A stretch of DNA of 64,000 nucleotides. It comes from Nannobrachium achirus (lineage: Eukaryota > Chordata > Actinopteri > Myctophiformes > Myctophidae). Under the pieces are notes generated by a model. The model had not been told where the DNA came from and ran no database searches. It worked only from the letters and a program-made list of their open reading frames with translations. Below are positions 1 to 62,330 of the stretch, one piece after another (the stretch's first letter is position 1; every line of letters begins with the position of its first letter). The stretch covers positions 59,516,274 to 59,580,273 of the forward strand of contig OY997649.1 of NCBI GenBank assembly GCA_963921795.1. The letters are read 5' to 3'. A program made the translations under genes and the position numbers.

Positions 1-352
1 GTAATTTCAAAGCGAACGTTTGTAACTCAAATTTTGCTTCTGGGTGGTCCCTGGAACTAAATATTTTGAGATGGCCAAATTTTGGGGGTCCTTCACATTT
101 TGGGGGTTCTTCACATGAAAAAGTTTGAGAACCACAGAAATAGTAGTCTCTCAAGAACAGACTAACTGAGCTCCAGTTAAGTGAAAAGGACCTTTTCTTT
201 GACGATGGCCAGATTTTTCAAAAATAGCAGATCTACAAGCTTGCAGCGCGGCACTCGGTGCCGCGCTGTGAGCTTGTAAATCTGCTATTTTTCAATAGTT
301 AAAGCAGAAAATAATAATACACTATAATGTGTACCCGTTCTAAATGGGTTAA
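1..352 (+). mobile_element. Family A hAT-type MITE, fragment cut by window start
   Basis: The window opens inside a family-A copy. The core with ggtccctggaactaaatat is at about 48-67, followed by tttgagaaccac and then the right-hand hairpin at 219-293, whose arms (aaaatagcagatctacaagc and its complement) close on a GCGCGGCACTCGGTGCCGCGC tip read in two halves. The tail caatagttaaagcagaaaataat and ctaaatgggttaa matches other copies. The usual right terminus (GACGCCCCTG) is missing. The copy runs straight into a reversed family-B element at 362. Confidence 0.8.
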
Positions 353-361
353 GCCCCACTC

Positions 362-929
362 ATCGTCGTTGTTGTCAGGTGGAAACCTTGTATGTCCAAA
401 ACCGTTCGTTTTGTATTTATCATTTAAAAAAAAACGATCTAAAGTAGTGAAAACAGCCGATCTACAAGCAAATCTAAAATCTAAAATGCCTGCCAAAACA
501 CTGTAGCCTTTGCCATCTACCTAGGTTCTAAATGATCAGACATGTAATGGATAAATGAATAGCTTTTAAGCTGTATACTCGTTGCAGACTAATCTGCATG
601 GTATTTTTTGACATTACTTTTGGAAGAAAGGTTTCTCTCTTCAAGATATAACCTGAGATATAACCTGTGACTCGACTTGAAAAGCTTGTGACTTAATCGA
701 CTCGACTTGACAACCTTGCGACTTGACTCGAATCGACTTGACAACCTTGTGACTCGACTTGACTTGCCCACAACAGAAAAAAGACTTGTTTGAGACTTGG
801 AGCAAATGACTTGCTACTCGCTTGGGACTCGTATCAGAGGGACTTTTTTTAACAATTTTCTGTTACTTTGTGAAAAAAACGTACAATTTTGAAACTTGGA
901 GATATGAGGTTTCTGCCCGACAGTGACGT
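362..929 (-). mobile_element. Family B MITE, reversed, split by an insert
   Basis: The right end of family B (ATCGTCGTTGTTGTCAGG, then GGAAACCTTGTATGTCC) starts at 362 and runs to one hairpin arm (gaaaacagccgatctacaagc) near 457-478. The left end, reading gaaacttggagatatgagg then ctgcccgacagtgacg, lies at 890-929. About 400 bp separate the halves, so this is probably one copy broken within its hairpin. The join is inferred from the order and orientation of the pieces. Confidence 0.65.
479..880. repeat. Insert with degenerate GACTCGACTTGA repeats
   Basis: The DNA between the two halves of the first family-B copy contains irregular repeats of gactcgacttga/acaaccttg, mostly at 660-830. The rest (479-640) resembles nothing I recognise. 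No open frame of interest. Confidence 0.5.
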
Positions 930-1194
930 TATGGTTACAGTTATGTTTATAGCCGCACTCCGGAGTCGCGCAGCACCGCGAAAACAGCCGATCTACAAGG
1001 TACCGCTCGTGAGCAAAGCTTGCGGCGTGTGTATCGGGCTATTTTTACGACAAGGTATATGTTATCAAGCGCTTCGCTCACTTTGCGGGAACCATGCACA
1101 GCCCGGAACTTTCCGAACGATCGCATTGGAATGCGAGACACGTAGCCATGATCTCTCTCTGTTTACTGTTCCCTCTCCTTCACCGCTATCTCTG
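930..1194. other. Unique stretch with degenerate hairpin relic
   Basis: Mostly unrecognised sequence. A worn copy of the hairpin module lies at about 979-1047: left arm gaaaacagccgatctacaag, right arm ending in atcgggctattttt, with a diverged tip. Confidence 0.4.
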
Positions 1195-1276
1195 TGTCTT
1201 TCTCCTTCACTATCTGTCTCTCTCTCTCTCTCTCTCTCTCATCTCTCTCTCTCTCTCCTCTCTCTCTCTCTCTCCC
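1195..1276. repeat. (CT)n microsatellite, interrupted
   Basis: Imperfect CT dinucleotide run with TAT, CATC and CCTC interruptions. Confidence 0.95.
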
Positions 1277-1659
1277 TCGCCCCCTGGCAGTCCAGCTGCA
1301 AATGCCAACACACTGTAGCAGGGGAAACTTTTTTTCCTCCGTGTTTTGTTTTGGATGTTGATTTTTTTAAGCACACGAGACAATATGCTATTAGCATACA
1401 TTGAGTTCCGTCTCCACCCCTCCCTCCCACCCTGTCGTGTCACTATCAGATGTCATTGCTTGAACGGGTTGAAGGGTAAACAGTCTTTCAGGTAAATGTC
1501 TGTAGAGTCTCTTGTCTATGCTCTGTGCGACGACAAAGACCTCTGGGTAACTAGAATGCATTGCTGTATAAACTGAGGGGAGTCTCAGCAGGGCTACACG
1601 AGGACCTAAGCCAACACCGTGTTTATTGTAACGTCACACGCACAACCCCGTACATGCTA
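1277..1659. other. Unrecognised unique stretch
   Basis: No recognisable repeat, gene or regulatory structure. Frames crossing it are short and partly encoded by the neighbouring microsatellites. Confidence 0.5.
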
Positions 1660-1762
1660 TCTCTCTCTCTCTCTCTCTCTCTCTCTCTCTCTCTCTCTCT
1701 CTCTCTCTCTCTCAGACACACACACACACACACACACACACACACACACACACACACACACG
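1660..1762. repeat. Compound (CT)n-(CA)n microsatellite
   Basis: About 27 CT repeats pass directly into about 23 CA repeats. This is a compound dinucleotide array on one strand. Confidence 0.97.
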
Positions 1763-59979: not shown

Positions 59980-60225
59980 ATCGTCACTGTCGGGCAGAAA
60001 CCTCGTATCTCCAAGTTTAAAATGTGTACGTTCTTTCCCAAAGAACGCCCTGCGTCATCATCATACAAGGCCGTCGCACAAAAAAGTACAAGCACACACC
60101 GCCTTGCGGTGCGAGGCGTTGTGTGCTTGTAGATCGGCTGTTTTCACTGGTTTAAACCATTTTTAAAATGATAATACAAACCAAACGGTTTTGACATACA
60201 AGGTTTTCACCCGACAACGACGAAA
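59980..60225 (+). mobile_element. Family B MITE
   Basis: atcgtcactgtcgggcagaa start, acccgacaacgacga end. The left outer hairpin arm is deleted (aaaaaagtacaagcacac), the tip and right arm are intact. Confidence 0.85.
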
Positions 60226-60756
60226 TGGTTAAATAATGAAGAAAATAAAGCAGACTTGAGGGAAACGACTCAAACACCCAAAATGACTCCCACTTGTAAA
60301 AAGAAAAAAAAAAAGAAAAAGATAAAAGAGATAACAATTCCCAATTTAAAGAAAAGGAACGGAGAGAAAAAAATAATAATCTTCAAGTGTTATTTCTCAC
60401 CGGAGCCAGTCTATGCTAATAACGTCAATAACACGACGGCACGTAGACACCACCTTGGGGCGACGCGGCGCTGATCACAGCGCTGATCGCCACGCGTCGC
60501 CGCTGCCATCGTCAGAGGCGGTAAATATTTCATCAGGGATGCAGATGTGTCAATTAAAGATACACGGGAGACGCAGCCGGATGCCTCGCACCCCCCACCC
60601 CCCTAGCCCCCCACCCACCCAAACCCCCCCTCGCTTTATTTGTCTTTTCGCCCCTCTTTCCACGGCTCTCGCTCAAGGATATTCTCATTAGCACATTAAT
60701 GCAACATAAATGAGTGGGACACTGGAGACGGCTGAGACATCCTACAGGGGTTGGGT
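60226..60756. promoter_or_regulatory. Unique island, candidate CNE
   Basis: Poly-A-rich first part, then 60400-60720 non-repetitive with agtctatgctaataacgtc, cagcgctgatcacagcgctg palindromic pair, tgtcaattaaagatac and ctcattagcacattaatgc. Candidate only. Confidence 0.28.
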
Positions 60757-60906
60757 GGTGTGTGTGTGTGTGTGTGTGTGTGTGTGTGTGTGTGTGTGTG
60801 TGTGTGTGTGTGTGTGTGTGTGTGTGTGTGTGTGTGTGTGTGTGTGTGTGTGGTGTGTGTGTGTGTGTGTGTGTGTGTGTGTGTGTGTGTGTGTGTGTGT
60901 GTGTGC
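60757..60906. repeat. (GT)n microsatellite
   Basis: More than 70 GT repeats with one GGT interruption. Confidence 0.98.
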
Positions 60907-60936
60907 GCGGGGGGGAGGGGGGGGAGTGTATAAAGA

Positions 60937-61541
60937 CAGGGGCGTCACAAGGTGGGGGAAAGTGGGACTGAGTTTCAAGGCCCATGCAAGGTGGAGGGAC
61001 CTTAATTATTTTATACTTTAGCTATTGAAAAAATAGCAGATTTACAAGCTCACATCTGCTATTCTTGAAAAGACGTGAAAATGTGTGCAAATCTTTGAAT
61101 ATATGTATTTCTTTAAGCGAACATTATTTTGTAACTCAAGTTTTGCTTCTGAGGGGTCCCTGGAACTAAATATTTTGAGATGGGGGTCCGTGGCCAAATA
61201 CATATCATTTTGGGGGTCTGTCACATGAAAAGGTTTGAGCACCACTGACATAGAAACATGTTTTTTTTTGAAAAACCTTAGAAGGATTGAAATATTCAAT
61301 GATTTGCACACATTTTCTAGATTTTTCAAAAATAGCAGATCTACAAGCTCGCAGCGTGGCTGTGAGCTTGTATATCTGCTCTTTTTCAATAGCTAAAGCA
61401 CAAAATAATGCGTAATAATGCGTTCCCAGTCTAAATGAGTTAAACCCCCTCCTCCCCCTATGAAGAACATTCATGGGGGCCCCGCACATGTCAGTGAATC
61501 CTTGTACCCAGCAGGGCCCAGAACTTGATGCGACGCCCCTG
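60937..61541 (+). mobile_element. Family A hAT-type MITE with perfect 8-bp duplication
   Basis: CAGGGGCGTCACAAGG start, GATGCGACGCCCCTG end, tataaaga on both sides (60929-60936 and 61542-61549). Hairpin 1 is reduced (61026-61071), hairpin 2 at 61327-61388 has lost its tip. This copy fixes the family ends and the hAT assignment. Confidence 0.95.
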
Positions 61542-61819
61542 TATAAAGATGTGTCTCTTTGGGGGGGGAACTGCATCAATACTTCCTGTCTCCACCACTC
61601 TGGAACGTGGCGCGCGCGGCCCGGTGAAGTGAAACCGTATATCCGAGAGTGAAGCCGTTTTTACACAGAGTTGAAGAAATGCAACCGATGATGAATTACT
61701 GGCACCGGTTTCTTTCTGGCCGGAGCGCCGGTGTACAATATGGTCCGTTCTGGAAATCGGATGCCAAGAAAACGAAGCAACTTGGAAAGCATTCGAAATC
61801 AAATCACTGACAGCATGGC
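61542..61819. other. Unrecognised unique stretch
   Basis: Nothing recognised beyond the target duplication at its left edge. Confidence 0.45.
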
Positions 61820-62330
61820 CAGGGGGCGTCGCACCAAATGCTGGGCCCTGCAGGTACAAGGATTCACAGCGTTATTGTTGTGCTTTAACTATTGAAAAAT
61901 AGCAGATATACAAGCTCACAGCGCGGCACCGAGTGCCGCGCTGCGAGCTTGTAGATCTGCTATTTTCTTAAAATCGTGAAAGTCTTTGAAGGGTTTTGGA
62001 AAAACCTATGTTTCTATGTCAGTGGTGCTCAAACCTTTTCATGTGAAGGGCCCCCAAAATGATATGTATTTGGCCACGGACCCCCCCATCTCAAAATATT
62101 GAGTTCCAGGGACTCCCCAGAACGTTCACTTAAAAATACACATATTCAAAGATTTGCACACATTTTCATGACTTTTCAAAAACAACAGGTCTTGAAGCTC
62201 ACATATATCTGCTATTTTTCAATAGCTAAAGTATAAAATAGTTAAGGCCCCTCCACCTTGGGCCCTATAGTAACTCAGTGCCACTCCCCCCCCCCCCCCC
62301 CCCCCCCCCCCCCCCCTTGTGACACCCCTG
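61820..62330 (-). mobile_element. Family A hAT-type MITE, reversed, perfect 8-bp duplication
   Basis: CAGGGGGCGTCGCACC start, TTGTGACACCCCTG end, agcatggc on both sides (61812-61819 and 62331-62338). The hairpin at 61893-61966 is near perfect; the second is reduced to its outer parts (62177-62221). Long poly-C at 62285-62316. Confidence 0.95.

Follow-up and report, generated by a model that had tools for sequence, protein, structure and literature searches.

A palindromic hairpin found in several transposon families of Nannobrachium achirus is probably the core of TTAA-ended miniature elements nested in hAT-type hosts

How does one palindromic hairpin come to lie inside transposons that have different ends? 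The question is raised by a stretch of 64,000 nt from the myctophid fish Nannobrachium achirus (GenBank assembly GCA_963921795.1, contig OY997649.1, positions 59,516,274 to 59,580,273 of the forward strand), hereafter called the window. A first-pass annotation of this sequence had noticed the hairpin in at least five transposon families, labelled by letters, and had proposed that it is either mobile by itself or a functional cassette repeatedly captured by non-autonomous elements. The answer favoured here is that the hairpin is probably the conserved core of a superfamily of TTAA-ended, piggyBac-like miniature inverted-repeat transposable elements (MITEs), which became nested in hAT elements and were amplified together with them.

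The existence of the repeat is beyond dispute. Using AGCNGATCTACAAGC as the arm query, 65 arms were found in the window at 42 sites, 23 of them as facing pairs, when up to two mismatches were tolerated, and 46 arm sites (24 paired) when three were allowed, in agreement with the about 40 copies first reported. Another 113 arms at 84 sites came from 20 loci of 10 kb sampled at 20.0 Mb of contigs C1-C20, so that the window and these loci together hold 178 arms compared with 1 in the reversed-sequence control. The proposed whole-genome search (1,658,514,493 bases) returned 237,633 exact matches of the 17-mer arm ATAGCMGATCTACAAGC (118,570 + 119,063) and 0 for the control. With these counts, an origin by chance or as an assembly artefact has practically no probability left and can be regarded as refuted. 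All 11 hairpins that had been singled out as clear examples do fold, with 27-39 pairs each under RNA energies, and five modules folded as single-stranded DNA reach -35 to -47 kcal/mol (z -12.8 to -16.8, with 0 of 200 shuffles as good). No Rfam family matched the window at the gathering score. The 16-mer arm occurs in 30 stretches of the viral and 86 of the prokaryote collections, one match each, which is read as chance.

The hairpin stands at the middle of a larger unit, TTAACCACTTGAACC...hairpin...GGTTCAAGTGGTTAA, and reading of the flanks revealed a TTAA-ended inverted repeat around many hairpins. Genome-wide, the pattern TTAACCACTTGAAC-N20-50-GATCTACAAGC has 4366 + 4418 = 8,784 matches (reversed control 0). 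Among 20 places picked by hand from 100 listed matches, all on contig C1, 12 carry both TTAA-unit ends and delimit units of 124-210 base pairs (bp); as judged by eye, the element H or one of its variants is the host of 16, a GGCACCCC-type element that of three (L157, L159 and L160), and one (L164) lies elsewhere. TTAA at both outer ends was found in H-type units, in a 115-bp unit at L024 412-526, and at L158 and L161. A search with the diverged end TTAACCACATTAA, followed after 15-45 bases by GATCTACAAGC, added 37 further matches (control 0), of which 26 are by eye distinct from all others, the rest falling into sets of 5, 4 and 2. The inner arms of these matches take the A form (TTTATACTTTAG-like) at three places (C12:36178110, C18:9320484 and C21:28142331), a B-like form ACTAGTGAAAA at one (C16:62026416), a C-like form ATTTGAAAATAGC at C1:7896814 and C24:20643586, and F/H-like forms AACATTTG at several; the set of four (AGTCGAATATAGTC) fits none of these forms. 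In the 177 flanks from the window and the 20 sampled loci that are long enough to test, the TTAA-end motif is present within 150 bp of the hairpin, at no fewer than 12 of 15 letters, in 7.3%, compared with 1.3% of 3,822 random stretches.

Some families also resemble one another beyond the hairpin. In a set of 15 x 9 spacer and flank comparisons with 300 shuffles each, the right spacer of F matches the right spacer of H (z 7.0) and the outer flank of A matches a TTAA half-unit (z 6.5), both with 0/300 shuffles as good. The description of the families as unrelated beyond the hairpin fails for F, H and N and for the outer flank of A, and the homology that was expected of a single diversified family is largely present, as TTAA terminal repeats and spacers, in several families. 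The element N, correctly described as bearing a single arm, proves to be a TTAA-ended unit (TTAACCGCTTGAAC...GGGTTCAAGTGATCAA, 42563 to ~42696, + strand) inside an H-type element that matches at 42391-42750. Two of the four worn copies thought to have no host likewise show TTAA-unit ends in degenerate form: at 6424-6551 the right flank ends, by eye, in GGGACGCCAGCTTGAACGTGGTTAA, and the copy at 59855 lies in a degenerate H-type unit (TTAGCAACTTAAACC...CTCTACACCAAAG, 59750-59960; neither has an assigned strand). Around the worn copies at 979 and 56586, no such unit was recognised.

To identify the outer elements, the surroundings of 139 modules from the window and L001-L028 were scanned for inverted ends accompanied by an 8-bp duplication. 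Both features were found at 16 of the 139 modules, compared with 4 of 126 random points; one match, ATGTGTACACAC, was discarded on reading as repeat sequence. The hosts accepted by search and subsequent reading are A (CAGGGGCGTC), F (TAGGGATGGG), D2 (TAGGGCATTC), D (CAGTGGTTCTC), G (CAGTGTTGATTT) and H (CAGGGGTCTGAC), together with two further elements that contain a nested B (L024 3079-3543 and L012 3746-4315), and all of these have the duplications of hAT elements. The six lettered families resemble hAT MITEs in their 8-bp target duplications and CAG/TAG ends; they are carriers, and the hairpin unit inside them is separate. In the window, the ends of A are flanked by the duplication TATAAAGA at 60937-61541 (+ strand, two hairpin positions) and those of F by GGTATAAG at 29934-30283 (+ strand, hAT-like TAGGGATGGGAC, one arm at 30056). 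The ends reported for C (CAGTGGTG/CACCACTG), like the GGCACCCC-type host at L157, L159 and L160, were recognised by eye only. Both ends of B, an element of ~250 bp, were confirmed: all 14 copies with both ends carry at least one core, with TA on both sides in 4 and on at least one side in 10. The search of the 139 modules yielded no B-ended 8-bp duplication, and B is not classed as hAT. The outer elements are thus several families with different ends, even though D2 includes part of D. The two have a common interior, including the right end of D (D2 at L014 9093-9576, D at L016 6645-7122), and one seems to be a chimera with, or a nested remnant of, the other. Clustering by 250-bp flanks lumps 108 of the 139 modules together because the hosts are nested. 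A pattern-based classing of arm types was left unused, as it was crude, C copies being assigned to A and D copies to B.

The favoured reading assumes a unit with the plan [TTAA]CCAC(T/A)TNAACCC, variable spacer, AAAAYAGCNGATCTACAAGC...palindrome, variable spacer, GGGTTNAAGTGG[TTAA]. From an old and diversified group of such TTAA-ended MITEs, different members would have inserted into the hAT-type MITEs A, F and H, and into C and the GGCACCCC-type host, which may be of hAT type as well. As these hosts multiplied, each by its own mechanism, the unit would have been carried along, and the spacers and one or both TTAA ends would have decayed faster than the pairing core. On this account, the appearance of one module in unrelated families reduces to nested transposition and hitch-hiking. 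Its observed basis consists of the TTAA terminal repeats around the hairpin in several contexts, the common spacers of F, H and N, and the deletions seen inside the palindrome. Membership in the piggyBac superfamily is suggested by the TTAA target and by the CC at the start of the unit, the short inverted terminal repeats of that superfamily likewise beginning with CC, and the unit was presumably moved by a piggyBac-type transposase. Of 952 candidates in the genome, 116 are scored matches to piggyBac transposase, mostly free of internal stops. For the hairpins of B, D, G and K, the same origin with later loss of the TTAA ends is possible, the links being weak or none.

Several results weigh against this reading. 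Convincing TTAA ends were not found in B, D, G and K, and the best scores in the 15 x 9 comparisons were z 4.0 for B and 2.7 for K; the left flanks of D2 (z 5.1) and G (z 5.5), each with 0/300 shuffles as good, are nevertheless not counted as demonstrated. The inner flank of A, the right flank of K and the left flank of M matched nothing. A good TTAA end is present in just 13 of the 177 flanks; for most hairpins, the tie to the unit therefore runs through decayed copies, if there is one. Four F-type copies have letters other than TTAA in front of the terminal repeat, and TTAA ends occur with no hairpin nearby at window position 54645 and at L017 4625. No clean empty TTAA site was found, H being the one host examined at both unit boundaries; of its 11 short copies, 9 retain part of the right end of the unit and 2 have other letters there. 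Finally, unit ends were not found near nine piggyBac transposase matches, in two 901-bp flank pieces each, and no autonomous piggyBac element with unit ends was identified in the nine transposase loci that were read.

If the hairpin were itself a mobile element inserting into other transposons, its occurrence in elements with different ends would follow directly. To judge from the copies that have lost it, this is improbable. Short copies, in which the host flanks lie 30 bases apart or less, were surveyed genome-wide in families D, F, D2 and H, with filled copies uncounted and with C, G and K outside the survey. Copies lacking the full hairpin number 164 in D (100 listed), 34 in F, 31 in D2 and 11 in H. 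Nearly all of them are partial, with heterogeneous breakpoints that often coincide with short direct repeats, as expected for palindrome deletion, and there is no sign in these four families of members that ancestrally lacked the hairpin. By eye, 8 of the 100 listed D copies have one common deletion between AATAG repeats. Clean short copies, which would favour a mobile hairpin, amount to 3 among the 100 listed in D and 1-3 of 31 in D2, and can be explained by repeats of 2-4 bp. One hairpin-less copy (L013 6175-6194, compared with L014 9224) is compatible with a TA duplication. It is one of the 31 short D2 copies, nearly all ragged, and solo movement of the hairpin, with a duplication of TA or of 4-6 bp, was dropped as a candidate for that reason. 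An AGAA duplication in D was likewise rejected, with so few clean copies among those listed. Across families, no common boundary or target duplication was found at the hairpin. Pairing continues past the core for a family-specific distance and with family-specific letters, and hence there is no fixed end; outward positions 6-9 pair in 54-80% of 61 modules, compared with 27-46% with permuted flanks. Hairpins flanked by AC repeats on both sides were seen at 5 loci and by TA repeats at 3. The AC-repeat test of insertion is weak because a hAT end used as control seldom adjoins such arrays either: on the reverse strand it did so in 104 matches for ~133,000 estimated ends, compared with 137 for ~440,000 estimated arms of the hairpin. 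The proposal of a hairpin that targets transposons by itself accordingly found no footing.

The idea of a captured cassette comes closer to what was found, since several transposons with different ends do carry the module. In its full form, several superfamilies would have captured a selected functional sequence, such as a putative transposase-binding palindrome or a source of double-stranded RNA; this is possible, though not likely. The conservation of core and ends in the face of variable spacers would suit it, as would the report that piggyBac transposase binds palindromes (PMC11707139). The pairing history argues both ways. The alignment used here comprises 22 modules: 20 of the 27 of equal length, omitting L002, L003 and L004 (near-copies of L001) and four copies of family A, plus L145 and L152, which are 10 columns off register on the left and contribute nothing to the outer pairs. 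In it, 88.9% of cells pair, 21 of 41 pairs have changed in both arms, and covariation scores 0.252 compared with 0.118 in shuffles (0/500 as high) and at most 0.08 with the partner slid. The number of further pair types, however, is not above that of shuffles (267/500 as high). Related sequences may also beat shuffles with no selection at work, and the double changes, which run along subfamily lines, may stem from few founder events amplified by the hosts. A further point against full constraint is a common A/C difference between the arms. It was counted in 73 paired hairpins, with L002, L003, L004, L007 and L181 omitted as duplicates; the set includes loci chosen by pattern (L001, L005, L006, L008 and L145-L164) or by transposase (L165-L182), and family A was assigned by arm letters. 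Outside family A (51 hairpins), the pair is A/C in 28, C/C in 12, A/A in 5 and contains T in 6; within it, A/A was found in 21 of 22. Arm-to-arm template switching during replication (palindrome correction), which would remake perfect hairpins and extend them into host flanks, is also unlikely. It would explain why family-specific pairing reaches ~7-15 bp past the core and why both arms of an older B copy (L010 6017) changed together. Correction should erase mismatches, though, and the persistence of A/C in more than half of the hairpins outside family A therefore counts against constant correction. The orientation of the A/C arms is mostly constant by eye within hosts B, D, F and H, and the recurrent asymmetry is what would be expected if a single ancestral hairpin, itself slightly asymmetric, had been copied whole. 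The difference lies at arm position 4 (AGC[A/C]GATC), recurs across the B, D, F, H, J and K types, and could act as an orientation mark for tracing descent.

Within the nested TTAA-MITE reading, it is quite doubtful, though conceivable, that the palindrome is an internal transposition signal under selection, for instance a putative dimeric binding site for a piggyBac-type transposase. piggyBac transposase is reported to bind palindromes through paired cysteine-rich domains (PMC11707139), which might be a reason for conservation of the core. Such a signal would have made the TTAA MITEs so successful that many hAT and other families were seeded, and a single DNA palindrome would then boost or regulate several transposon superfamilies at several hundred thousand sites of one vertebrate genome. 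At L165, L169 and L181, of which L165 and L181 are identical, a piggyBac transposase domain is preceded, ~500 bases upstream, by a hairpin whose TTAA-unit flank (GAATAGGGATGC) is decayed, in an upstream region common to these copies. Elsewhere, at C2:71.35-71.84 Mb, 16 piggyBac transposase matches (PF13843), all on the + strand and 15 without internal stops, form a tandem cluster within ~0.5 Mb.

Compared with known systems, the units resemble MITEs of the piggyBac superfamily in the TTAA that bounds them on either side and in the many piggyBac transposases of their genome, and differ in their conserved palindromic centre of 60-85 bp between variable spacers. The Kolobok T2-MITEs of Xenopus also have a TTAA target, are long-lived and comprise many subfamilies; their termini after TTAA read AGGRR, whereas the unit here reads TTAACCAC, with CCAC after TTAA, and so departs from that signature (PMC6004289). 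Angel of zebrafish (Izsvak et al. 1999), as described in PMC3636048, is likewise a high-copy DNA element of fish, able to form a stem-loop through long inverted repeats, but here the palindrome is the core of larger units nested in hAT hosts. In full-text literature, an 11-mer of arm or end occurred in four papers, on topics unrelated by title, and three longer strings had no match; among the papers listed on MITEs, palindromes, Angel, piggyBac, Kolobok and fish, no title or abstract opening describes the element.

The density of ~0.42 sites per kb (84 sites in the 200 kb of the 20 loci) extrapolates to ~700,000 in the genome, which makes this single palindromic core a large feature that is easy to mistake; a repeat library in which elements are named after their outermost ends would scatter it across many families. 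It offers a case, open to counting, in which a transposon spreads within other transposon families and the pairing of a palindrome outlives its flanks, as well as a caution that a common internal module need not move by itself.

Further copies were placed in the window. A hairpin with A-type arms, found by arm search and folding, lies at 219-293, and C-type elements contain hairpins at 2232-2295, with a degenerate TTAA-unit end GAGCTGAAGTGGTTAC in the right flank, and at 7028-7101, where the right flank GAGCTAAAGTGGATTAAT resembles such an end (no strand assigned to these three). Inside a C-type element, a MITE-like stretch TTTAAAGGAGTAGTTCACCCC...GGGCTGAACTACTCCTTTAA at 2505-2720 has TTAA and an AGG start like Kolobok T2-MITEs. 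Family A (CAGGGGCGTC...GACGCCCCTG) is represented on the + strand at 2997-3532 (hairpins at 3087-3161 and ~3384-3458), 5092-5626 and 48647-49190, and on the - strand at 59006-59589, with an 8-bp duplication with one mismatch, each with two hairpins; a further copy at 61823-62295 (- strand) has a hairpin at 61893-61966, and an A-type hairpin at 39923-40261 (- strand) has TTAACCACTTTAACC as its far end. Another F copy, of no assigned strand, spans 58251-58632 with its hairpin at 58362-58430. B elements with a hairpin, all on the + strand, lie at 9778-10046, 30543-30783 (TATCGTC...GACGATA, right end by eye, hairpin at 30652-30728), 51490-51716 (hairpin shortened) and 59979-60225. The A elements at 2997 and 5092 agree exactly in the 10 bases that flank them on either side (gagccacagc / gagatcgagg), and thus look like a direct duplication and not two insertions. 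Outside the window, single arms stand two or three in a row at L014 2319-2380, L013 3100-3126 and L006 2270-2305, which suggests slippage at the palindrome, and L022 5904-6100 contains a ~90-bp tandem repeat of three units with one arm each, every arm preceded by the B-like ACTAGT(G/C)AAAAC.

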